Source: a virus. Taken from it: DNA of 20,956 bases. Shown here piece by piece: positions 744-20,234 of the stretch. How positions within the stretch are numbered: the stretch's first letter is position 1; every line of letters begins with the position of its first letter. A model generated the notes under the pieces. The model was not told the DNA's origin. It ran no database searches and worked only from the letters and a program-made list of their open reading frames with translations. A program made the translations under genes and the position numbers. Location: positions 1 to 20,956 of the IMG/VR virus record IMGVR_UViG_3300030294_000181; one strand, 5' to 3'.

Positions 744-3296
744 TTATCTCTCCCCAACTACTTTATTTTTGAGCGCTGTCCTAGATTTAATTTTCTCTCT
801 AGCCATAGCTGCAGTATCTTTCATCTTCTGTAATTGCTGTTGCATATTAAGTTTTTTGCTTTCCAAGTCTAATTTAGACTTCTCCATACTTAATTTAGAT
901 TTTTCTATAGCCTTATCTGCTTCTATCCTAGATTTTTCAGTATCATTTTTCAATTGAGACTCACGAACTTTCTGTTCTCTATCCATTTGTTTATTAAACT
1001 TATCAGCTTCATGTTGATTTTGAGACAAAGATAGATTTGCAATCTCCATAACATCTGGTATACTATTACCATTGGCATCTAAACCAGGAGTTCCCTTATA
1101 CGCATTAAGTTCCGCTACAGCAACTTTAGTTTGGTTATCAGCGTCAACCTTATATTTCTCAAGATCTAATTTCTGTTGATCCATCTGAATGGCTTGTTGC
1201 TTAACTTCATTATTAGCTTGAATCTGTTGCATTTGATTCTGTTGTTCTTGTTGTTGTGCCTGCTGTTGTTGTTGTGCTTTAACCTGCTCTATATCTGCTA
1301 ATTTTGATTTAATTGCAGTGACACTATCTAATGTCATAATTTCAGCAACATCTAATAATGTAGCGCCATTTTGCATTGCAGGTTGATACAGGGATTTAAT
1401 AGCTTCTAAATTCTGCATATCTTTAGATGAGTCAGAAACAAATACATCCATATCTTCATAAAAGAAGTTATCAGCCAACTTCATAAAGATTCTAGTAGCA
1501 TCATTCATTACATATTGTATATTCTGACGTTTAGAATCTCTCCAACACTCTTTTGCAGTATTAAGTAGCATCCTTAATGCATTCTTTTTACACTGATTAT
1601 GCATCCAAAATAATGGCTCTGTAATATTAGCAGAATTATTAACGGCAGTATTTACATTTCCAACTAGTTCACTAGAAGTAACTTCTCCCTGTCTCTGTCT
1701 ACTTACGCCAGATATTTCAGCAACCATATCCTCGATCTTAGCCATTAGATTTATGTACTGACTAATAACATCAGACATAGTTAAATCAAGTGCCGAGATC
1801 TGATTAAACTGAGATGGTTTTCCACCTTCTCTGCCTGGTATATCCCAACCTTCTTCATATGGATTAACAAAGTTTACGCCAACAGCAGATAGATAATGCA
1901 TCCATTTTGCCGCATCTATATTCATTGACTTAGGGATCTGTGTAATATCCATTGTTATTACTTTCCCTTTATCTCTAGATAACGCAAGCTCTAATCGATA
2001 CCATACAATTATATACATATATTGAAGTGGTTTCATTATAGACACTAAAGATCTTGATTTTGAGTTAGTATTACTATAAATTACTCCTGAATATGGTAAT
2101 TTCTGAGAATTTAAATTATCAGAGGATACAAATTGATATTCTAATGGCTGTATGCCAACATATCCATCTTCTCCGAATCTATATCCTTCCCATACCTCAA
2201 TAACCCATTTCCATTCTATATTAAGTTCATTACCAATGGCCATGTAGTCTTCACTCACTATCATTTCTTGTGGTTGGTTATTCTCGTCAAGTACTGTTAC
2301 GAATCCAATCTTTTTATATGATTTCCATGTAGCATGCCATAAATTTATTTGATTTGGACTACCAATAGTAGAATCCCCTGGACCTGTAACTGTTTTCATA
2401 TCTAAATGAATATAATCAACATTAGATCCATCTCTACCATATCCATTTCCACCAGGCTTGACATTAGTCTCTTCAAGTAACTTATCTAATTGCTTATCAG
2501 TCATTTTATCATATAGTCTGTCATATATTTCTGTATGAGACATTCTCATGCGCCTAACAGCCCAATCACCATCTTCTATAAATTCTAAATCAGGAGAGTG
2601 ATCATGTCCAAAGTACATTGGATTTACATGCTCTAAATTTGGTTCTCCATTAATAACACCAGTATAATATATTTCTTTACCAGCGATTAATGCATCCTTC
2701 CACCCTTTATGGAACTCATGAGAGAGGCCTAACTTTTCTTTTAGATAATTTAAACTATGATAAGCCGTTTCTTCTGCAATGTCTTTATAGTCTTTTGTTA
2801 TAAAAGAAGATATTTTTTCAGGTGGCATTATTTCGCCAGTGCTCAATTTGGACTGGAATTCTTGCGCCTGTTCTGGAGACATAGTAGACATGACTTCTGC
2901 CATCATGTAGTCGACAATCATCTTCTTCATTTGATCTTGAACATCAGAAGACGCATCTTGGCTCGTCCTGATTACCCTGAAATTAAAGGGGTGTTTTGTT
3001 TCTTCTCCAAGTAAAAGGTCTACCTTTGGTCTAATAATATTAAAATCTTGTGCCGTAGCTGGAAATCCATCATCTTGTTTGAATGGGTCAGTTACATACT
3101 TTAAATCTTTTTCGTCAAATATACTATTATACAGATCATAATATGTCTGCATTTCCTCAAAGTTAGTTTTATCGGAACCAGAAGGAACAGTTTCCCCCAT
3201 ACCAATAATATAGTCTACGCAAGCTTCTCCCCACTCCTTAGTCTTCTTTTTAAGACTCAGTTTTTGTGCTGGAAACATAGTTGTTGTATTGTTCAT
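744..3296 (-). CDS. Phage portal protein (crAss-like type)
   Basis: An 850-residue protein encoded immediately downstream of the large terminase, the canonical place for the portal. The portal forms the ring at the capsid vertex through which the terminase pumps DNA. The N-terminal half has mixed alpha/beta content with many aromatic residues (for example IEWKWVIEVWEGYRFGEDGY around residues 360-380), followed by a helical region. Residues about 670-705 are extremely Gln-rich (runs such as AQQQQQAQQQEQQ), and the last 150 residues are highly charged and predicted coiled coil (KSRIEADKAIEKSKLSMEKS). Large portals with long charged C-terminal extensions are known in crAss-like phages. ATG at 3296 is 2 bases from the terminase stop. 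The family call comes from size, context and recognisable resemblance, not a search. Confidence 0.85.
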   Translation of the reverse strand: MNNTTTMFPAQKLSLKKKTKEWGEACVDYIIGMGETVPSGSDKTNFEEMQTYYDLYNSIFDEKDLKYVTDPFKQDDGFPATAQDFNIIRPKVDLLLGEETKHPFNFRVIRTSQDASSDVQDQMKKMIVDYMMAEVMSTMSPEQAQEFQSKLSTGEIMPPEKISSFITKDYKDIAEETAYHSLNYLKEKLGLSHEFHKGWKDALIAGKEIYYTGVINGEPNLEHVNPMYFGHDHSPDLEFIEDGDWAVRRMRMSHTEIYDRLYDKMTDKQLDKLLEETNVKPGGNGYGRDGSNVDYIHLDMKTVTGPGDSTIGSPNQINLWHATWKSYKKIGFVTVLDENNQPQEMIVSEDYMAIGNELNIEWKWVIEVWEGYRFGEDGYVGIQPLEYQFVSSDNLNSQKLPYSGVIYSNTNSKSRSLVSIMKPLQYMYIIVWYRLELALSRDKGKVITMDITQIPKSMNIDAAKWMHYLSAVGVNFVNPYEEGWDIPGREGGKPSQFNQISALDLTMSDVISQYINLMAKIEDMVAEISGVSRQRQGEVTSSELVGNVNTAVNNSANITEPLFWMHNQCKKNALRMLLNTAKECWRDSKRQNIQYVMNDATRIFMKLADNFFYEDMDVFVSDSSKDMQNLEAIKSLYQPAMQNGATLLDVAEIMTLDSVTAIKSKLADIEQVKAQQQQQAQQQEQQNQMQQIQANNEVKQQAIQMDQQKLDLEKYKVDADNQTKVAVAELNAYKGTPGLDANGNSIPDVMEIANLSLSQNQHEADKFNKQMDREQKVRESQLKNDTEKSRIEADKAIEKSKLSMEKSKLDLESKKLNMQQQLQKMKDTAAMAREKIKSRTALKNKVVGER

Positions 3297-3297
3297 T

Positions 3298-3950
3298 TTA
3301 ATTCCAATTTATATCTACTGAATTTTTTGCTATTTCTCCTAATGCGTCATCTGATGATCCCCACCATTCTCTACTAAATAGAGGTTTATTAAAGAGATTG
3401 TTTTTTCTAACATCTTCATTTTTTTTCTTTACATGAAGATTATGTAATTGTTGCCTATAGATCATTACCATTATAAGGGCTATAACCCTATCAAAGTTAC
3501 CTTTGTCGTTATATTGTATTAATTCTTCTAGTAATGGTTCTGATAATATCTTAGTTAAGTTCTTTTTGCCAGGAGCATATTCTTCATTTAACCATTCCTT
3601 TATAAGTCCTTCACCATAGTCCTTTATTTGGACATTCATATGAATTCCTTTTCTACGCTGTACTGTGGATTTTCCTATGATATCATTAATAATATCTGGT
3701 TGATCTGCTAGTAGGTAGTCAGAATGTTTCTGTGTAAAATATGGAAAGATCCCCTTACGTTCATTCTCATATAGTAGTCTAGCATTATAATACAGTAATA
3801 ATTTACGTACATTCTCGTAGTAATCTTCTGCAGTATCTGGCCTCCCAGTATACTCTGCCACTATTATATCATAGTATGATTCAAAGTCTTGTATTCGTTT
3901 ATAAATGAATGTAGCTCCTAAGGAATTAGTACCAGCCTTATCGTGATCAT
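3298..3950 (-). CDS. terL: Large terminase TerL, exon 2 (nuclease domain, C-terminal part)
   Basis: This stretch encodes the C-terminal 217 residues of the large terminase plus the last two bases of a split Tyr codon. The protein starts DHDKAGTNSLGATFIYKRI and continues with IVAEYTGRPDTAEDYYENV and YENERKG, typical of the RNase H-like nuclease domain that cuts concatemeric DNA at the end of packaging. A longer open frame extends upstream to an ATG at 4011, but its first 20 residues (MLSYMATYRSKDKK...) look unrelated and lie in the intron. Joining T4193 to A3950 creates the Tyr codon TAT and restores CDPYDHDKAGT in frame. The exon is therefore not an independent gene unless splicing fails. It ends 2 bases before the portal gene. 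Confidence 0.85.
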
Positions 3951-4192
3951 CAGTTTTGTTATCGTAAAGCTTTTTATCTTTACTTCTATATGTCGCCATA
4001 TAGCTCAGCATATATTATCAAGTTTGATTCTTGTCGAGCACTCTTGGCAGAATTATATTTATTCATCTGCTATGCGTTACGGTGATAATTAGCCTTTCGA
4101 AATCTAATTATTTACCTAGGTGTTTTCTACTAGAGACGTTCACCGATTTTGCTCAATTCTTACAGAAATTAATCTGCACCGCCATATCGTTA
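3951..4192 (-). mobile_element. Putative self-splicing group I intron (no ORF) in TerL
   Basis: A 242-base insertion separating two terminase exons. The upstream exon ends in U (4193) and the intron ends in G (3951), the group I rule. Exon CCGU (4196-4193) can pair with intron GCGG (4182-4179), giving a P1 helix with the diagnostic U-G at the splice site. Further helices visible by eye are UUGAGC/GCUCGA (4156-4151 with 4039-4034, P3-like), CGGUG/CACCG (4145-4141 with 4084-4080, P4-like) enclosing AUAAUUAG/CUAAUUAU, and CUAUAUG-GCGA-CAUAUAG (4003-3986), a 7-bp stem with a GNRA loop like P9. GUAAAG/CUUUAC (3983-3964) follows. I could not place P7 with confidence, so the subgroup is open. No homing endonuclease is encoded; the neighbouring intein may supply mobility. 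Confidence 0.75.
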
Positions 4193-6731
4193 ACGGGTCA
4201 CAATTATGTGACGTAATGTTTCTACACATATATGTATGTGTGTCGCATTCGAAATTATATACAGTTCCAGTATATTTAGATTTTTCAATCTTCGCTATCT
4301 TTAGATATATATATTTTCCGCATGAGGAGATTACTGCTTTATCTCCAGTCTTGACGACATCTTGAATCTTCTCTTCAATTATTCGTCTCATTTTTTCACT
4401 CTGAAGAAAGTGTTCAAATCCAGTTGGTATTATCCTTTTTATATATTTTCTTCCAATAGACAGCCTATACGATTCTTTACTTATGCATTCCTTACCATTA
4501 AATATAGATATACACTTTTTACTGTGTCTTGTTATTGTATTAAAAATTCCAGTAGCATATAACATATCCTGTAATGACTCTAGCATTTCTAAATTTATAC
4601 TAGTGAAGTTAACTCTAAGTTTTCCTCTATCATAAAATGCGCTTCCATCTGAATCTAAATATCCAGCAATAAAATACTTACGTAAATCGTTTCTTGCAAA
4701 TTTAACCCATTCTGGAATTCTTTTTCCATATGAATATCTTCCAAATTCATTTTCTAAAAACCCATATAAAATCTTACTAGTGAATCTTCTTGTTTCACCA
4801 CCATTCCATTTACAATGAGTGGTCTTTCTGTCAAATATTTTCTTAATTATATTATCGAATTGCAATGCAGACTTAGTTTGATCTTTTCCAAATGCAACGT
4901 ATATGTCATGAGAGTTTTTGTTTTTATTATTAAAACCATCTCCTAACCAACAGCCAAGAAACCACCAAAATAAAGGATTTTCAGAATTAAACTCCGCTCC
5001 AAAATATTTATATATAGTTGTTATGTATTTTTCATTTGATTCGCAATATCTATTTGGTATTTTTAATCTATCTCCTACTGAAACATCTTTGGCATTTATA
5101 AATTGATCCTCTATTAGCAATGGGTGCTCTCCAGTAAAATTAGTCCCTCTATATGAACCATGAGGAGTTACTCTATATGTATCGCAGTTTTCTTTGTATC
5201 TTTTTTGAAATACCTTAATTTCAACTTCCTCTCCTTTTTCATTTATAAGCAAATCATTATGGTCTATTTTTTCAACATCTTTAAGCCCATGATTTGTTAA
5301 AACTTTTTCTCCAGGAGTTAAACATCCTGCTATGTATAATTGATTTGAAGTGTCCTTGCTTGGATGCTCCCATATGACTATGCTCCCCTCATGTTTATCA
5401 TCCCTACCAAGTGGATATTTAGTTATATCACCTTTCTGTTTGATAGTCCAGTTTAATTCACCATTAATGTAATTTAAATCGCCTACTTGTTTATGTGATT
5501 GTAGCTTCCTGTTAGTACGTATTGCTGCTAACTGTATCATTAACTCTTTCTTTGGAAATATATTCCCTGTGAGCTCTAAAACAGCTTCCTGAGGGGTTAT
5601 AGGGTTCTCTGCAATATACCTATCAATTGCTCTAGAATCAGACGATCCATCTATTACTTTTTGACGCTCAGACATAGCATAATCAATAGCTTTAGTCTTT
5701 AGGCTATTGCCATTCTTATCCATGAACATCCTTTTGCTATTTGCATCAAGTACAGACATATTAGCATATACCGGAACAAAGAAAGCACATGTATTACCAT
5801 CTGCACCTTCATCCCATATATTTGGGAATGCCTTAATGTTATATCCAGATGGATTGTAGAACATTTCTTTTAGCCCATCAAATCTAGATCCTTCATCACC
5901 ACCAGTACCAAACGCTATCATTAAACCAAATGCCTTTCCATCTTCTTCTACAGATGGTCTAGCTATCTGCCAAGCTTGTAAGATATCTTTAAATGATCCA
6001 GCCTCTTCCCATAGTATAAGTTTACCACGTTTACCACGAGCTTTATTGGGGTCATTCTTTAATGATACTCCAATTATTTCAGACTTATAACCAACTTCAA
6101 TCTTATTACCCATTTCGTCAGTAGTAATAATAGAAGCTTTTCTATGCATTTTAGTATTAATCGCTTGACGTTTCTTAGACCATGCAGTATGTTCATCTAT
6201 GAAGTCCATATAGTCCCATGCCTTAGTTAGTAGTCCATCTCTTACTAAATATTCTGTTTCTGCAGCAATAGCATATCCTTTAGAATCGGGTATTAGATAA
6301 TAGTTTCTATCTAGCATAGACCCGCCCTTAAATGAATATCCTTTACCACGCGACTTTAAAACACACATATGGCTGCCATCTTCCTCTGCCTCTTGAACAG
6401 CAGTAAAGTAATAATAATCATAATCGTAAAAGTCAGGAAACTCTCTTGATTTCTCTCTGCGCGTTTTTACATTTCCAAATCTATCTTTATATGTAAACTC
6501 TACTAATCGTAGTATTGGACAATAATTTAAGTAAAAATAGTTATATCCGCTTATCCAATCTCCATCTGGAGCAGTATATCCCTCTACACATCTCTCTGCT
6601 TCTTTATCCCAATATGTTAAGTATTCAGTAGTACCATATGGTGCGAAACAGTAAACCCCATGGTCCTGAAAGTGGATCGCGGGGTTTCTGAATTTATTTG
6701 AATTTAAAACCTTCTTATTGAAATTAATCAT
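4193..6731 (-). CDS. terL: Large terminase TerL, exon 1 (ATPase domain, interrupted by an intein)
   Basis: This is the ATPase part of the DNA-packaging motor, starting with ATG at 6731. Residues 126-137 (KSRGKGYSFKGG) match the crAss-like Walker A region. LILWEEAG at about 238-245 is the Walker B with catalytic Glu, and AFGTGGDEGS at about 273-282 fits the coupling motif. Residues 470-843 are an intein, after which the terminase resumes with Cys-Asp-Pro. Without intron removal the frame runs 17 more codons (LTIWRCRLIS...) and stops at 4140, losing the nuclease domain. With both elements removed, exon 1 plus exon 2 gives a 1063-residue precursor and a 689-residue mature protein. The Asp after the extein Cys corresponds to the first metal-binding Asp of the nuclease (G-x-D-P pattern). 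Adjacent genes are portal downstream and a small basic protein upstream. Confidence 0.88.
4203..5324 (-). mobile_element. Intein with LAGLIDADG homing endonuclease inside TerL
   Basis: A 374-residue in-frame insertion with all hallmarks of a self-splicing protein element. It starts with Cys1 (CLTPGEKVLTNHGLKDVEKI, splicing block A), has the block B pattern FTGEHPLL with the key His, and ends with YNFECDTHTYMCRNITSHN followed by the extein Cys (blocks F and G; terminal Asn and Cys+1). Between them sit two dodecapeptide motifs of a LAGLIDADG homing endonuclease, LGCWLGDGF and IAGYLDSDGS, each with the Asp expected for metal binding. The element should splice itself out of the terminase. The endonuclease would cut intein-less alleles and drive copying. 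The exteins flanking it read LYIAG and CDPYD. All residues needed for splicing are present, so it looks active. Confidence 0.93.
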
Positions 6732-8972: not shown

Positions 8973-9399
8973 TAATTCCTAATTGCTTTAGTAATATAAT
9001 TAACTCTGATTTATTTTTGATTGTTCCTTGGAATACAAATCCATTATCTTTTATAATCTGAATAAATAAATCGGCATCTATTAATAATTCAAAATCATCT
9101 TTATAGTACTGGTCTTTAATCGTTTGCTTAAATCCTAATGATTCTATATCTTCTTTATCGAGATATTTAACTCTGAGTCTATTATCATCTAATACCATTT
9201 TAAAATCATATGAACTATTCCATATAGAAAAATGATGTAGTCCAAAAGTCTCCTTTATCCATGTTGGAGTAGATTCACTTACAACATCTTTTGTAGGATC
9301 TTGAAAATCTAATACTGCAAATGAAGTAGAGAATGTGTTGGACTCAAACTCGAACCCAACATGAAATTCTTCTATAACTGGAGTATAATACTTATCCAT
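8965..9399 (-). CDS. Unknown protein of 144 residues
   Basis: I place the start at ATG 9399 (MDKYYTPVIEEFHVGFEFES), because this opening is typical of small phage proteins of Bacteroidetes phages; an upstream ATG at 9423 would add eight residues. The stretch DDFELLIDADLFIQIIKDNG and the C-terminal GTIKNKSELIILLKQLGINE suggest a compact alpha/beta fold. There is no signal sequence. It overlaps the dUTPase-fold gene by 8 bases. Function unknown; I have a sense that the N-terminal pattern recurs in gut phages, but no family name. Confidence 0.65.
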   Translation of the reverse strand: MDKYYTPVIEEFHVGFEFESNTFSTSFAVLDFQDPTKDVVSESTPTWIKETFGLHHFSIWNSSYDFKMVLDDNRLRVKYLDKEDIESLGFKQTIKDQYYKDDFELLIDADLFIQIIKDNGFVFQGTIKNKSELIILLKQLGINE

Positions 9400-9862
9400 T
9401 TGACTGTGACAATTCTTCTGCAACTACCTCTTCTACATTCTCAGAAACCTCTTTCTTTTCTTCAACTACTGGCAATTCCATTGGTAATTCATTAATCTCA
9501 AGTGATGGTAATTCTACTATAATTAACTTAGCAAATACTTCACCTGGTTCATAAATAGCTGGAACCGAATCAGTGTTAGTCTTAAATCTTGCTACTATTT
9601 CATCTGTATAATTACTAGTAAAAGTAGCTACAGCATTAGTAAGCACTAATGAATTAATAAAAGCTCCATCAGCTAAGAATAACATTCCAATATATCCTGT
9701 TGGGATATTGATCTTTAAACCTGTTTTATATTCCAGAATCAAACGCCCATCTCTACCAACTCCAGTTTTAATATCGATACATGTTATATCTAATACATTA
9801 CCATTTGGTTGCAGTACTGGTAGTACCGCTTTTTCGTTAATTTTCTTTATATCTAATTGCAT
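9392..9862 (-). CDS. dUTPase-fold protein, catalytically diverged
   Basis: A 156-residue protein whose core (about 15-118) follows the trimeric dUTPase order. There is an early strand region GRLILEYKTGLKINIPTGYI, then LTNAVATFTSNYTDEIVARF in the place of motif III (usual VIDxxYRGE), then YEPGEVFAKLIIVELP for motif IV (usual GDRIAQLIV). The motif III Asp is absent and the motif II PRSS signature is not seen, so dUTP hydrolysis is doubtful. The last 35 residues are acidic and low in complexity (VVEEKKEVSENVEEVVAEEL). A dUTPase normally keeps uracil out of phage DNA; this copy may instead be a binding or structural version. Neighbours are unknown small genes. Confidence 0.6.
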   Translation of the reverse strand: MQLDIKKINEKAVLPVLQPNGNVLDITCIDIKTGVGRDGRLILEYKTGLKINIPTGYIGMLFLADGAFINSLVLTNAVATFTSNYTDEIVARFKTNTDSVPAIYEPGEVFAKLIIVELPSLEINELPMELPVVEEKKEVSENVEEVVAEELSQSNG

Positions 9863-9867
9863 ATTAT

Positions 9868-10035
9868 TTATTTTTTATTCCATTTTGCTGCATTCTGTGC
9901 GAATATAGCTCTCTTTTTTGTAACTGGATTCTTAGAATGAGTAAGTTCCTCTGTTGATTTTCCAGTATCCTTTTTGGTAGCAGTAAATTTACCCACATTC
10001 TTAGGATCTATATGTATAGGATTTTTCTTAGTCAT
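9868..10035 (-). CDS. Small basic phage protein, 55 residues
   Basis: ATG at 10035, TAA at 9870-9868. The product runs MTKKNPIHIDPKNVGKFTAT, then KKDTGKSTEEL..., ending FAQNAAKWNKK. The pattern 'PIHIxPxNxGKFTA ... RAxFAxNAxKW' is one I associate with a small protein common in phages and jumbo metagenomic viruses. Here the central part is shortened. Function unknown, possibly nucleic-acid binding given the charge. It is bracketed closely by two genes, which supports it being real. Confidence 0.65.
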   Translation of the reverse strand: MTKKNPIHIDPKNVGKFTATKKDTGKSTEELTHSKNPVTKKRAIFAQNAAKWNKK

Positions 10036-10052
10036 AATATTAATTTTAGTTA

Positions 10053-10514
10053 TTATTTCTTTTTAGGCGGTTTGGTTTTTCCTCCACCACATTTTAATTT
10101 ATTCATTTTATTTTCTTTTTTATTATCTTGTATAGCCTCATCAATACACCTTACAATCCATTCAACAAAATACGCATGTGGCTCTCCTCCGATATCGACA
10201 CAGTCTGCGCCAATATGAGAATATATTCTGTCTACCGCATGACATGCCTCGTGAGCTAATGCCCCAACTGTCATTTTATCTGGTCTTAGTATTGCAACAT
10301 AGACTCCATATTTTCGTGTGTCTTTTTTAACATTCATTACTGATGTACATGCAACCCATCCATCATCTAATATTGAATTTGTAGTATTTTCATCTTTTGG
10401 TTCAAATGTATTGTCTATTTGTTCTCTGGATGGATTTATTAATACCCAGAATTGAATTGGATAAATATCTGAGTAGAACTCATGTATAATCATTTTTTTC
10501 TCAACTTTCCCCAT
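10053..10514 (-). CDS. Zincin-like protein with HExxH motif
   Basis: A 153-residue protein with ALAHEACHAVDRI at about 85-97, the zinc-binding HExxH with Glu as catalytic base, and GGEPHAYFVEWIVRCI at 109-124 that could supply the third ligand (Glu111 or Glu118). The N-terminal half looks like beta strands (FWVLINPS, WVACTSVM, YGVYVAILRP). The C-terminus is Lys/Gly-rich (KLKCGGGKTKPPKKK). Such mini-zincins occur in crAss-like and other gut phages; whether they cleave protein is not known. An internal ATG at 10493 is an alternative start. It starts 9 bases after the stop of the 57-residue gene. Confidence 0.7.
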   Translation of the reverse strand: MGKVEKKMIIHEFYSDIYPIQFWVLINPSREQIDNTFEPKDENTTNSILDDGWVACTSVMNVKKDTRKYGVYVAILRPDKMTVGALAHEACHAVDRIYSHIGADCVDIGGEPHAYFVEWIVRCIDEAIQDNKKENKMNKLKCGGGKTKPPKKK

Positions 10515-10523
10515 TCCTAATTC

Positions 10524-10697
10524 CTACTGTTCTAATTTTTTAATAAAATTCGCTCTAACTGGGCAACCACCTTTTCTTTTTATGCAGATAGTAGCTTTAT
10601 CTGCACCGGTTTTACACGCCGTTTGACATACCGCATAATCAAATGCTCTTATTGCAAAGTTCTTTGTTACTGTCTCTTCTTTCTTTCTGTTCGTCAT
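10524..10697 (-). CDS. Small Cys-containing protein, 57 residues
   Basis: ATG at 10697, TAG at 10526-10524. The product MTNRKKEETVTKNFAIRAFD continues YAVCQTACKTGADKATICIK and RKGGCPVRANF. Cys at 24, 28, 38 and 45 could bind a metal, but the spacing matches no finger that I know. Its start overlaps the end of the upstream gene by 59 bases, which is long for this operon. Still, it fills an otherwise empty 120-base interval. It ends in TAG, which argues against TAG being recoded here. Confidence 0.55.
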   Translation of the reverse strand: MTNRKKEETVTKNFAIRAFDYAVCQTACKTGADKATICIKRKGGCPVRANFIKKLEQ

Positions 10698-10902
10698 ATA
10701 ATTTTCTTTTATTACCCTTGAACCTTCTTTTTAATCTAACCTTAAACAAATATGCAAACATTAAACTCTTTTCATCGTCAGGATTAGAAATATGCCTAGA
10801 TGCAAATATAAAAGGGTGATTGCAAATCATTGATACTACGGATTTATGCAATCCATGTTTTTCTGCTAGTATAGTATATATATCTGTGTTTTTGGATACC
10901 AT
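10639..10902 (-). CDS. Small protein, possible HTH-type, 87 residues
   Basis: The N-terminal 40 residues read IYTILAEKHGLHKSVVSMIC, then NHPFIFASRHI. This fits a helix-turn-helix-like pattern recurrent in Bacteroidetes phages (AEEFNIPVKTVEMIVNHQF-like). The C-terminal half is strongly basic (KVRLKRRFKGNKRKLYDEQK), consistent with DNA or RNA binding. ATG at 10902 overlaps the upstream gene by 37 bases. The family resemblance is from memory and unverified; the role is unknown. Confidence 0.65.
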   Translation of the reverse strand: MVSKNTDIYTILAEKHGLHKSVVSMICNHPFIFASRHISNPDDEKSLMFAYLFKVRLKRRFKGNKRKLYDEQKERRDSNKELCNKSI

Positions 10903-11102
10903 GTTTTTTCAGTAACAATATAGTAATCACTACATCTGTTTCTATTATAAAAACTATTGTCTTTTTTGCGTTCTTTTCTATTTTTAGATTTCCATTCTAA
11001 TTGGTGGTCACTAGTAAAGTAGCAAGATTCATCTTTCTCTCCAAATATTCTGGAAAGTAATGACCCCCTTTTAGGCTGACTAGTTGGATTGTAATAATTC
11101 AT
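10866..11102 (-). CDS. Small charged protein, 78 residues, unknown
   Basis: ATG at 11102 (MNYYNPTSQPKRGSLLSRIF). The middle is highly charged (LEWKSKNRKERKKDNSFYNR) and the end is Tyr-rich. It overlaps both neighbours (23 and 37 bases) in the packed operon. No recognisable domain. It could be a shadow of overlapping genes, but no other frame explains positions 10903-11079. Confidence 0.5.
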   Translation of the reverse strand: MNYYNPTSQPKRGSLLSRIFGEKDESCYFTSDHQLEWKSKNRKERKKDNSFYNRNRCSDYYIVTEKTWYPKTQIYILY

Positions 11103-11466
11103 CTTCTTTTATTTTTAATATCATTATTATTTGAACTGTCTTATTCCCGATTGCTATTGGAGTTAAAGCCCTACTCATAGATAATATACCGTCTTCTTTT
11201 ACAAAAATTTTCTTTTCTCTAAATATTTTGATATATCTACAAAGATTATCTTTAGTTACAGTAGTGACTTTCATTATATAACGTCTATTATCTGTTGAGT
11301 CTATAGGAGTTTTGCCTTTCCTAGTTTTCATATTTCTTAAATGCAAGTCTAAAAAGATAGAGAGCAATTCTAACTCCCTATCTGTTAGATCTAATAATCC
11401 ATTTAAGCTACGCAAAAACTCATAACCTAATTTATCTGGGGATATGGTTTTTATAAATTTATTCAT
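11080..11466 (-). CDS. Winged-helix-like protein, 128 residues
   Basis: The protein reads DKLGYEFLRSLNGLLDLTDR, ELELLSIFLDLHLRN, then a region where KVTTVTKDNLCRYIKIFREK is followed by KIFVKEDGILSM. This resembles a winged helix: three helices, a recognition-like helix (KDNLCRYIKIFREKK) and a hairpin. It may bind DNA as a regulator or packaging initiator. ATG at 11466 overlaps the upstream stop (TAATG), so the pair is coupled. A small-terminase role is possible but unsupported. Confidence 0.65.
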   Translation of the reverse strand: MNKFIKTISPDKLGYEFLRSLNGLLDLTDRELELLSIFLDLHLRNMKTRKGKTPIDSTDNRRYIMKVTTVTKDNLCRYIKIFREKKIFVKEDGILSMSRALTPIAIGNKTVQIIMILKIKEDELLQSN

Positions 11467-13503: not shown

Positions 13504-13511
13504 ATATTAAT

Positions 13512-13679
13512 TTATCTTGATTTCCATAATTTCTTAAGTCTATTCTTATCTTTGGTACTTAGATTGAATTGAGTTCCCCGGGATTCTATCTTATCATTAA
13601 TAGTATAGTCATTGACTGAACCATATTCGTCTAGAACCCTTTTGCTACTCAATATTCTCTTTATATGTGCCCAATTCAT
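13512..13679 (-). CDS. Small protein, 55 residues, first gene of the leftward operon
   Basis: ATG at 13679, TAA at 13514-13512; MNWAHIKRILSSKRVLDEYG, then SVNDYTINDKIESRGTQFNL and a basic tail STKDKNRLKKLWKSR. It looks protein-like and ends 9 bases from the next gene. The promoter-like motif at 13679-13699 touches the start codon, so the mRNA would be leaderless, or the gene is read from farther upstream. Function unknown. Confidence 0.55.
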   Translation of the reverse strand: MNWAHIKRILSSKRVLDEYGSVNDYTINDKIESRGTQFNLSTKDKNRLKKLWKSR

Positions 13680-13699
13680 ACTTATATAAACGTATTTAA
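13679..13699 (-). promoter_or_regulatory. Leftward promoter-like motif, copy A
   Basis: On the minus strand it reads TTAAATACGTTTATATAAGT followed by A, sharing TACGTTTATATA with the motif at 12111-12134. It sits at the head of the leftward operon. A weaker relative sharing CGTTTATA is at 14112-14132. Confidence 0.5.
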
Positions 13700-14165
13700 C
13701 CCGTCCTTTGTTGTACCATTATTAAGTATTATGTATCTTTGTTCACTCTTAAACACAGTTTACCCCTTGAGACCGGCCCATATTCGGTATGGTTTATTGA
13801 TTATTTCCTTATTAAATCTGTACGTTCCCTTTCGGTATCACTTAACCCGTCTATCGCAATCTCTCCTTCTTAGCTATAAATAGCAACGGCATTTAACTTG
13901 TACTTTAATCATTTTGACACTACCGGAGAAAACTAATAGACTAACTAACGGCCTTTTATTGACTATAAATGCATAGAGTTTGGCGCTTGACCTTTATCTC
14001 ATTTGAGTACTCACCTACTGCCTTTATCTACGTCCTCGGTTAATCTATTATAATCCGATGTCTAACCCTTTATTGATTACCTTAGGGTGATCAGTCTTTG
14101 GAGACTGGTATCGTGTGTATAAACGAAGTATATTCTATTTTGTTGTCACTGTTGTAAAAAATTTT
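13700..14165. other. Gene-free stretch with repeated CCTTTAT boxes and hairpins
   Basis: No plausible gene on either strand. The plus strand is pyrimidine-rich and carries CCTTTTAT at about 13952 and CCTTTAT at about 13991, 14021 and 14068. Hairpins include CAGTCT-TTGG-AGACTG (14090-14105) and CCATA-TTCGG-TATGG (13778-13792). A weak promoter-like CGTTTATA on the minus strand at about 14120 would transcribe it leftward into the operon. It may be a long leader or a separate RNA. Confidence 0.4.
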
Positions 14166-14334
14166 CTGAAAAAAAATAATTGATAGCATGTGCGAGTGCG
14201 CGAAACTCTCTATATATGTCTCCCCCGGTCGGATCTGATGGTCCAAGTCCCCCGTCAGCAATGTTGAATCGTAATTTCCCAATCATGACTCCTTTAGGTA
14301 GAATTGGAATGGTTTAACCTTGATTAATTCTACC

Positions 14335-14362
14335 TTAAGGTCACTGTCAAGACTCCTTTAGG
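14335..14362 (+). repeat. 28-base RNA module, copy 1
   Basis: Begins TTAAGGTCACTGTCA and ends CTCCTTTAGG. It matches copy 2 at 14627-14654 at 23 of 28 positions. A partial copy (GACTCCTTTAGG) lies at 14287-14298 and a looser one (TATCAAGACTCTTTAG) in the terminator near 15434. Confidence 0.6.
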
Positions 14363-14626
14363 CTGATTAGGCAATGTTATTGCTGTTTACTCTCTCATAT
14401 TACAGGTCAATGTAATATAGCATGTGACATATAATGGTGTGTCATACGCTCTCAATGCAACCATTATGCAGTAGTTAGTACGCATTGTCGAGCTAAGACT
14501 AAGACAATTGTTTAGACACAGTTGATGTTGGAACACTACTGCAACTCTCTCTAATAGATCATGTATGTTAGTTACACTAATGTACTATACAATATATAGA
14601 GTGCGTTAGATCGCATTAAAACCCTA

Positions 14627-14654
14627 TTAAGGTCGTTGTCAGGCTTCCTTTAGG
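14627..14654 (+). repeat. 28-base RNA module, copy 2
   Basis: Begins TTAAGGTCGTTGTCA and ends TTCCTTTAGG. As with the first copy, a hairpin lies close by and an octamer GTTTACTC occurs downstream, suggesting a duplicated RNA domain. Confidence 0.6.
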
Positions 14655-14830
14655 TGTAGTTGGATAGGCGCATTGTAGCAATGGCAATTAATTCTATCCT
14701 TACTGATTGTATGTGGCAGTTTACTCACATTCTCGTTTCGTTGGGATCGTAGGTCCAACATACATTTCCCAAGACTGGGGTCATACAGCCAACGTTCAGC
14801 ACTAACGTACAATAAGTGCTCCTTTTTCTT

Positions 14831-14910
14831 AAGTAATGCACAATGTATGCCACTATAGTAGTGCCTGGATGATCCAGCTAAACCTATGTCCGCATTGTGT
14901 ACTACTTTTT
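14831..14910 (+). terminator. Three-way-junction terminator ending the 14.2-14.9 kb RNA
   Basis: AAGTAATGCACAATG (14831-14845) pairs with CATTGTGTACTACTT (14893-14907) with one mismatch and one G-U. Inside are CACTA-TAG-TAGTG and CTGGA-TGA-TCCAG. A T5 tract follows, so it should end rightward transcripts. Confidence 0.75.
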
Positions 14911-14911
14911 A

Positions 14912-14958
14912 AATCAGTAATACATGTAAGACAGACGACATGCATTGTATTACTGATT
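14912..14958. promoter_or_regulatory. 13-bp perfect inverted repeat before the lipoprotein gene
   Basis: AATCAGTAATACA pairs with TGTATTACTGATT around a 21-base loop. It lies between the preceding terminator and the lipoprotein start. It may be a second (bidirectional) terminator, an operator, or a leader hairpin. No strong U tract follows on the plus strand. Confidence 0.5.
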
Positions 14959-15000
14959 ATTACTATTAATTAACTATTATTAACTATAATCATTATCAAA

Positions 15001-17753: not shown

Positions 17754-18095
17754 ATGAAACAGTTTAAATCACATTCATTAATATTATTATTCTATGAAAT
17801 AGTAGGATGGTGCATAATGCACAAACAATTACCCAGAAAATTAGACATTTGGATAGAAGACAAGGACGACGGCAAATTCATAGCTAACGTACATCACTAC
17901 CCAGATAGAAGACCTATTTCAGCTAATGAATTGGAATCACCACTTAAAACCAATGAACCGGTTATTAAGAACAAAAATCAAATTGAGAACGAAAGAACTC
18001 AAAAAATAAGAGAATTTTCAGAAACTCACTCATCATTATCAAAGCAGGATATTGCTAATGAATACGATGAAATGGTGAAAGAAAGAAACAAATAA
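17754..18095 (+). CDS. Unknown protein of 113 residues
   Basis: ATG at 17754 preceded by the leader TAATTCATTATCAAA. An amphipathic or partly hydrophobic N-terminus (HSLILLFYEIVGWCIMHKQL) is followed by WIEDKDDGKFIANVHHYPDR and a charged helical C-terminus (ENERTQKIREFSETHSSLSK, QDIANEYDEMVKERNK). It is the last gene before the 1.7-kb structured region. No known family. Confidence 0.6.
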   Translation: MKQFKSHSLILLFYEIVGWCIMHKQLPRKLDIWIEDKDDGKFIANVHHYPDRRPISANELESPLKTNEPVIKNKNQIENERTQKIREFSETHSSLSKQDIANEYDEMVKERNK

Positions 18096-18212
18096 TTCAA
18101 TATAACAAAAATAGAATTTTAAGCTAGTTTCAAAAACAGCAGCAGTTACCAGTAGCCTAGGATGGCGAATCTAACTGAAACGGGTGGGACTCCCAGGTTA
18201 ACATGTCAGGGA

Positions 18213-18234
18213 ATGCTTCCAAAGGGCATACTAT
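18213..18234 (+). repeat. TTCCAAAGG hairpin module, copy 1
   Basis: ATGC-TTCCAAAGG-GCAT followed by ACTAT. Downstream, ATAAAACATGGATGG occurs at 18338-18352, mirrored by copy 2. Confidence 0.65.
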
Positions 18235-18443
18235 TATTTACACACGCAGTAAGCTGTATATCGATTGCAATCTATGATAACACTAGGATTTGTATAAATT
18301 CAAGAATATCATAATACGAGTCGCGAGTACTTGAATAATAAAACATGGATGGATCAAAAGAAATAGTAATAATAACGTGGGATGACCACTCGACAGCAAG
18401 AATATCGTCTTGCATTACTATTTCTGGCTAACACGTCGTGAAA

Positions 18444-18465
18444 CTACTTCCAAAGGGTAGACTAT
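18444..18465 (+). repeat. TTCCAAAGG hairpin module, copy 2
   Basis: CTAC-TTCCAAAGG-GTAG followed by ACTAT. Two of the four stem pairs differ from copy 1 yet remain paired. Downstream, ATAAAACGTGGATGG lies at 18518-18532. Confidence 0.65.
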
Positions 18466-19748
18466 ACTATATATAATATTGACAAAGCAGTAATGCGCTT
18501 GACTGTACAAAATAGATATAAAACGTGGATGGGCTATAAATAAAGACGAATCCCGAACTATACTTCATAGGGACGCAGTGATGCGATAAGTAAGTGAAAA
18601 AGTGCTGTTGAGTTAACTAAGGCAGCAATTTCATAATTCTCAAGTTAATTACTCGTTATTTTATAATTTCTATGGACGTATGACGCAGCTGAACCAGTGT
18701 CGAATTAGGATAACACTGATAAGGTTACACCCTGATTTGAATTAGGCGGAGCGGATGGGAATTATATATAACCAGTTGATTAGAAAAGATTAACAATTCA
18801 CGATCGCTCATAGTGAAAATCGTGAGCAAAGTCCAGCATTATAGTCCAATGATTTATGACTATTTACAGTAGATGGACCAGTTTGATTGATGGCTTTAGA
18901 CCAAACAAAACGACAACAACGTACCGACATTAAATTGGGTAAATGTTAAACTGGTGGCTAATAACGGTATTCGTATTGTATTAGTTGTGCCGTATTAAAT
19001 CGGCTAAGAGGTTGCAACTAAACTGCAGACATTCAGAAGTTGATGATTAGTTAAGAACTCAAACTGGAGAAACTTGGCATGAGTCCAGAAGTTAAGTTGA
19101 CGAATCCAATACTTAACAAAAACTTAGTTACGTAATCCGAGGGATAGACGCTAATGATTGGTTAAGAACCACAAATATGTACAGCCTACTAGTAGAAGCT
19201 GATGAAACTAGAAAAACAACGCTTGCCTAAAGCTCAGTGAAATGCTGAAAAGAAATGGTGCTAGAAAGGTATTAACTACCAATCTAAAATCCTATCCCTA
19301 GCCAAAACTCCCGGAAAGTACTAACTAGGAATAGTCCGTGACTGCAGAAGAACGGATATATCTGTAGTATTACAGATGAAAACAAAAAAAAGTGAAATGC
19401 AAACAGCAATGCAATGCTACCGTTAAGAGGAGCTCGAAAGGCAGATTAATCTTAGACAGTCGGTCCAACAAACCAGTAAAAGTAAATGTTCGCCGATAAT
19501 CGGTCATTAACCGACTCTTGATTGAGTCACTGGGAACAATAAGTAACAAATAAAAAGCGTATTATAACCGTATAGGCGCCGTGGAGGCTCAATAGTGGGG
19601 TATAAAGTTCCTACCTATTATTTGCTACTTACCAATATTAGTGAAATCGAAGTACAACGCCGTCACATATGTGGCAGGACACGCGCAGGCCTGTAAATAC
19701 TGCATAATAAAACTTACGAATACGGAAAAGAAAGTAACTAAACACATT

Positions 19749-19815
19749 AACACCCATACATAAGGCGAATAATAGAACCATGGTTCCGCTTTACAACTAA
19801 TGTATGGGTGTTTTA
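19749..19815 (+). terminator. Strong terminator closing the 1.7-kb region
   Basis: AACACCCATACAT (19749-19761) pairs perfectly with ATGTATGGGTGTT (19800-19812), followed by TT. The loop contains GAACCATGGTTC, itself a hairpin. It ends a rightward transcript. Confidence 0.75.
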
Positions 19816-19848: not shown

Positions 19849-20154
19849 ATGTCAAAACAACAAATTAACATCCAATTTAAACCAGATTTTGAATTAAAAC
19901 TCAAAAGATTAAGGATTAAAGCAAAATTCATTAAAGAACTAAGAGCATACCTATTAAGAGTAGGTACTGAAAGCGCTCCTGGACCAGTTTGCATTCACGC
20001 AACAGAATGTGTGGATATTACCACTTGGAGAACAATGGATTCAGCAATGTATTTAAATAAACTAAAACATTGGAGAACTTTCATAGCAAGAGCGTTTGAT
20101 TGGGCGAAAACAAAAGATGGATACCAATATTGGAATGAAATCTTAAAAAGATAA
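19849..20154 (+). CDS. Unknown protein of 101 residues
   Basis: ATG at 19849 after the leader CTAAAATCAATTTAGT. The protein is basic at the N-terminus (FKPDFELKLKRLRIKAKFIK) and Trp-rich later (TWRTMDSAMYLNKLKHWRTF, ARAFDWAKTKDGYQYWNEIL). It looks like a small helical protein. It lies between the giant RNA terminator and a tRNA-like sequence. I do not recognise a family. Confidence 0.6.
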   Translation: MSKQQINIQFKPDFELKLKRLRIKAKFIKELRAYLLRVGTESAPGPVCIHATECVDITTWRTMDSAMYLNKLKHWRTFIARAFDWAKTKDGYQYWNEILKR

Positions 20155-20162
20155 TGGCACAA

Positions 20163-20234
20163 GGCAGTATCTACATAGTATGAGAGCACTGTGATAGACA
20201 GCGGAAAGAACGGGTTCGAATCCCTAGGCTGCCA
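20163..20234 (+). tRNA. tRNA-like sequence, probably degenerate
   Basis: The 72-base segment has a canonical T-loop GGGTTCGAATCCC and acceptor arms GGCAGTA and GGCTGCC that pair at 6 of 7 positions (one G-U). The discriminator is A. The D arm is weak (TCT/AGA), the outer T-stem pairs are mismatched (C-T, A-A), and the anticodon arm pairs only as CTGT-GATAG-ACAG with an abnormal 5-base loop, so no anticodon can be assigned. It may be a decayed tRNA or a tRNA mimic. It lies 8 bases after a gene end and 30 bases before the next leader. Confidence 0.5.

Follow-up and report, generated by a model that had tools for sequence, protein, structure and literature searches.

Giant structured RNAs of bacteria and phages number, to our knowledge, only a handful, and two of these form RNA-only cages, namely the 14-mer GOLLD, whose expression goes up at lysis, and the octamer ROOL. 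The question raised by the locus analyzed here is whether a crAss-like phage encodes a further RNA of this kind. The window, i.e., the whole 20,956-base IMG/VR virus record (IMGVR_UViG_3300030294_000181) of a crAss-like phage genome, features about 1.7 kb of noncoding DNA between the ORFs at 17754-18095 and 19849-20154, which a sequence-only reading had taken for a giant structured RNA.

A noncoding element and its homologs in crAss-like phages

The element (18120-19815, + strand, its 5′ end being approximate) is delineated by the lack of ORFs, by blastn homologs and by covariation, and is encoded in the direction of the neighboring genes. The only ORF of at least 60 amino acids within it is a 68-aa frame on the minus strand that runs across the terminator. 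No convincing frame opens when TAG is translated as Q or TGA as W either, and a recoded protein gene was rejected on this account; likewise, no reading frame is common to the homologs in related phages. Thus, the earlier statement that the region lacks a plausible gene holds under the standard code as well as under both reassignments.

The portal and terminase proteins of the window match the PHROGs families 6547 and 6681, and by portal protein its closest GenBank relatives are gut phages of the Suoliviridae in the Crassvirales (54-58% identity); hence, we assign it to the crAss-like phages. Homologs were collected by gathering portal-protein relatives first, i.e., independently of the RNA, and then searching their whole records with the DNA of the element, which gave blastn matches with E values from 6e-130 to 2.5e-4. 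These comprise an identical copy in G001, homologs in G007 (E 6e-130), in G025 and G029 (one identical sequence; lowest E 2.5e-10) and in G012 (E 2.5e-4), weak colinear matches in G009, and two matches to a repeated motif in G020/G016. Further members came from motif scans of viral contigs, three motifs leading to G031 and a fourth to G033, which is identical across three records. There are, in all, eight distinct members (the window, G007, G031, G025, G012, G009, G033 and G020) of about 0.65-1.7 kb: the long complete ones span 1.3-1.7 kb, that of G020 is short, at about 0.65 kb, and those of G007 and G031 are cut by a contig end. The contigs of G001, G007 and G031 end within the RNA, as though assembly failed there owing to strain variation, and those of several environmental relatives end near its site, where absence cannot be claimed.

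The ORF that adjoins the RNA upstream (17754-18095, +) is syntenic in relatives by alignment, belongs to one family in the window, G007, G025, G012 and G009, and has a similar counterpart preceding the RNA in G033. The ORF on the downstream side (19849-20154, +) is syntenic in G025 (55% identity), and the gene that follows the RNA differs between members. Neither of these small ORFs has a Pfam domain, and the downstream one gained no homologs as a search bait. Beyond the family, neither a blastn search of 50,697 GenBank phage records with five members nor a search of five Suoliviridae genomes with the models R1 and R2 returned a match, and, among the matches listed in a pattern scan of genome contigs, no fetched locus carried the other motifs. 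A long gap in the gut phage cr52_1 was considered as a possible relative and rejected, as it shares no motifs and contains short ORFs. Our search of the open-access literature turned up no account of such an RNA in the Crassvirales.

Modules, compensatory changes and the 3′ terminator

Islands of conserved sequence follow each other in a constant order, namely P1, A-B, C, J, E, K, G, H, T and the terminator, and in the stretches that separate them base pairing persists despite divergence of the sequence. All of the following features lie on the + strand of the window. The 5′ domain helix P1 (18143-18177) joins CAGTTA (18143-18148) to TAACTG (18172-18177), and in G012 (13 bp), G007 and G025 its arms are swapped for unrelated complementary arms. 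Module A-B is duplicated only in the window, the other members having one copy or none: the first copy (18197-18352) displays the hairpin ATGCTT-CCAAA-GGGCAT (18213-18229) and the helix CATGT (18202-18206)/ACATG (18343-18347), and the second (18427-18532) the hairpin CTACTT-CCAAA-GGGTAG (18444-18460) and the helix CACGT/ACGTG (18523-18527), with compensatory pairs between the copies in both helices. Module C (18635-18766), which is closed by a helix of 18663-18671 with 18757-18765, is supported by covariation, and the model R1 matches its place in relatives with E values of 1e-24 to 1e-27, most of these relatives having trained the model. Module J is represented in the window by a remnant hairpin, GCCG-TATTAAAT-CGGC (18989-19004), which reads TCCG...CGGA in relatives; the full module covaries in five of them and finds a weak match in the window. 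The repeated hairpin E, with one to three copies per member, occurs at 19044-19059 (TGATT-AGTT-AAG-AACT) and at 19155-19170 (TGATT-GGTT-AAG-AACC), and here too the copies differ by a compensatory pair (AGTT/AACT versus GGTT/AACC). Thus, the compensatory changes between internal copies that had been proposed from the window are seen in both the A-B and the E repeats, as paired differences of their arms.

In the 3′ part, module K (19221-19247; RNAalifold z -4.5) consists of the hairpins GCTT..AAGC and CAG..CTG, with a compensatory change in G009. Module G (19287-19358) has a helix followed by the hairpin TCCGT..ACGGA with the palindromic loop CTGCAG (19342-19347); the model R2 matches it in the window at 1.4e-12, the window being a training member. 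Module H (19392-19463; GTGAAATGCAAACAG ... ACCGTTA ... GACAGTCGG; RNAalifold z -2.1) is conserved in seven members, and module T (19473-19533), with the outer helix CCAGT/ACTGG and the hairpin ACTC-TTGATT-GAGT, shows covariation. The element closes with a 3′ hairpin and terminator (19749-19814; z -6.9), wherein 32-nt arms (19749-19812) are followed by TTTT, in keeping with the strong terminator that had been suspected; a terminator hairpin is likewise present in G012. A simple terminator scan does not list the hairpin at 19749-19812 because its loop is large.

Members differ in their complement of modules: G033 starts at C and has no A, G020 comprises the 3′ part only, and G025 is without G. 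The greater length of the window's element stems from the doubling of A-B and from a 3′ extension after T. The RNA of G007 is 83-85% like that of G012 in two stretches and, over the 320 bases between them, 92% like that of the window; this switch in relatedness along the molecule indicates recombination and points to an RNA that may recombine by module.

The principal evidence for a structure under selection is covariation, which was counted over named helices on sequence-only alignments of this small family of eight, whose variable parts align with uncertainty, and compared with a control in which the partners were slid by 1-3 columns. The proportion of paired cells reaches 100% in module A (4 two-sided changes) and hairpin E (5), 98% in module C (4), 97% in module J (7), 95% in module T (7, with two-sided changes in 5 of its 11 pairs) and 82% in module G (7). 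When the partners in these six modules are slid, pairing falls to 19-69%, and the covariation score lies well below that of the real register. Further, the RNAalifold energy beats that of column-shuffled alignments in eight modules, with z between -2.1 for H and -8.7 for J. A swapped-arm test, in which arms picked by eye were paired with their own partner or with that of another member, gave 100% paired versus 31% for the terminator arms (window, G012 and G020, whose sequences are unrelated) and 95% versus 52% for those of P1. Over the six modules the stem cells hold 52 G-U pairs as against 9 A-C mismatches, which favors an RNA of the + strand, an excess that is partly biased by the structures having been chosen on that strand.

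Single-sequence minimum-energy folding of the window's element gave z of -3.4 and -4.6; its reverse complement does nearly as well (z -3.8), and the sequences of G009 and G012 (z -1.0 and -0.65) fold no better than shuffles, so such folding was rejected as proof of structure. Accordingly, the "dozens of perfect stems" of the sequence-only reading were an overstatement, as folding of the single sequence is moderately above chance; the convincing evidence is that homologs exist and covary. In light of this, the element is very probably a conserved structured RNA, and there is good reason to believe that it acts as a molecule in that form.

Relation to known giant RNAs and possible mode of action

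Scans against Rfam 15, with gathering and with permissive thresholds, found no match to any family inside the RNA, be it GOLLD, ROOL, OLE, HEARO or any other. The GOLLD model RF02032 gave nothing in the window at E 5 and in relatives reached at best 5.5 bits (E 1.3; gathering cut-off 150), outside the covarying modules; the ROOL model RF03087 gave nothing in the window at E 5 and nothing at E 10 in eleven records, with no positive in the control set either. OLE, HEARO and the group I and II introns are likewise large structured or mobile RNAs, but had no Rfam match in the window (E 5) or in relatives (E 1); the best score for the group II domain RF01998, 13.6 bits, was below cut-off and outside the RNA.

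With GOLLD, the RNA nonetheless has in common that it is giant, phage-encoded and near tRNAs, that a variable 5′ half is joined to a more conserved 3′ half (E and H are found in every member reaching them, and P1, A and C are missing from some), that a self-complementary hairpin loop switches its palindrome, and that no protein partner is known. It differs in lacking a match to RF02032, in its presence in crAss-like phages, in the duplication of a module inside the window's member and in length, with 1.3-1.7 kb for the long complete members versus about 0.83 kb. ROOL too is a large phage RNA near tRNA genes, but the present one is two to three times longer and no motifs were seen to be common. 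The published sizes, about 0.83 kb for GOLLD env-38 and 0.66 kb for ROOL env-120 (PMC12286853), agree with the initial estimate that the 1.7 kb element is about twice as long. Hence, the likening to GOLLD and ROOL was apt as a resemblance, and we conclude that this is an undescribed family of giant ornate phage RNAs that is a member of neither but may well work as they do, with the RNA looking like a larger counterpart of both. That crAss-like phages have a longer family of their own, unrelated to these two, suggests that giant structured RNAs arise repeatedly in phages, and modules that are present or absent from phage to phage offer a ready way to ask which part does what.

We propose that the element is a gene for a very large folded noncoding RNA, ended by its terminator hairpin, which would be transcribed, released as its own molecule and act in trans as a folded scaffold. 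Action in trans, which we deem probable for a separate transcript, is suggested by the variation of the following gene between members and by a size far beyond that of known leaders. A promoter of the Bacteroidetes type (TTG..TAnnTTTG) was sought upstream of the RNA and not found, and therefore it may be read or processed from the upstream operon; in G012, a search of the phage genome itself for an antisense target found none. Four members have CGTACG in the loop of the module G hairpin, where the window has CTGCAG, and either sequence is self-complementary. Given a constant outer pair, chance alone would give such a change of palindrome about 1 in 16 times, and it is therefore only a hint of possible self-pairing between copies; a switch of the same kind has been taken as evidence that GOLLD and OLE make intermolecular contacts (Kretsch et al. 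2025, PMC12286853). Self-assembly of the RNA copies, for which loop-loop contacts as in GOLLD and ROOL would be the likeliest route, is thus a tentative proposal. More speculative is a modular class of giant phage RNAs (long members 1.3-1.7 kb) with domains that duplicate and recombine from phage to phage and with self-assembly into a multimer exceeding the GOLLD cage in size, which we regard as rather unlikely.

Alternatively, the structured RNA might be a scaffold or sponge that works together with proteins or the ribosome, for instance in translation, rather than in an RNA-only assembly. We regard this as a credible though tentative possibility: tRNA genes lie downstream, a tmRNA gene lies further downstream in two members, and ribosomes bind GOLLD in pull-downs cited in PMC12286853; however, apart from the two small Pfam-less flanking ORFs, no conserved protein partner stands out. 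A cis-acting role, as a leader or intergenic structure that controls the neighboring small genes, is improbable: the element shares their direction and no promoter of its own was found, but it is far larger than known cis-regulators, at least two members have their own 3′ terminator, and the next gene differs between members. A DNA element with a folding single strand, e.g., a replication origin or packaging site, would accord with the other long noncoding segments of these phages, but is very unlikely in view of the great excess of G-U pairs over A-C mismatches, the terminator at the 3′ end, and stems that are short, varied and unlike origin repeats. Finally, a patchwork left by the decay of introns, ribozymes or tRNA genes and now devoid of function, to which the mosaic structure and the mobile elements signaled by an intein-like LAGLIDADG insertion in the terminase might point, is largely refuted by covariation, since the compensatory changes show ongoing selection and group I, group II, HEARO and tRNA models are unmatched inside the RNA in Rfam even at permissive E values; it is the least probable reading.

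tRNA-like neighbors and other features of these phages

The giant RNA was also noted to lie beside a tRNA-like sequence, and such an element is indeed present outside it, at 20163-20234 (+), with an irregular D/anticodon region that ARAGORN does not call as a tRNA. Genes for tRNAs are found downstream of the RNA in G009, G025, G020 and G031. A related tRNA-like element follows the RNA in G012 (about 19407-19512). Both combine an acceptor stem and a TTCGAAT T-loop with a D/anticodon region formed by a single hairpin, the loop being TATGAGAG / ATGAGAGC; the stems differ between the window and G012, yet pair, and the permuted tmRNA model gives the G012 element 19.9 bits. The same model recovers tmRNA genes in G025 (73917-74099, -), L303 (618-800) and G031 (3339-3616), with scores above cut-off in G025/G029 and in the gut phages cr50_1 and cr10_1 and weaker ones in G031 and others. 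The GenBank annotation already has a tmRNA in cr50_1 and cr52_1.

Other long noncoding stretches are also encountered. That at 13504-15000 of the window lies where two gene directions meet and is homologous in G014, G010 and G012. A second common noncoding region of about 2 kb (G012, 29940-31966; G031, 9325-11364; G019, 42662-44365; G014, 77798-78731) is mostly little structured and is perhaps a replication origin; the gut Suoliviridae have an unannotated gap of 1.9-2.5 kb near the DNA polymerase. The large terminase subunit of the window (4140-6731, -) is split by the intein-like insertion with its LAGLIDADG domain. Lastly, G030 probably reassigns TAG, because its very long frames at 1569-3739 and 66625-69001 open only with TAG as a residue.
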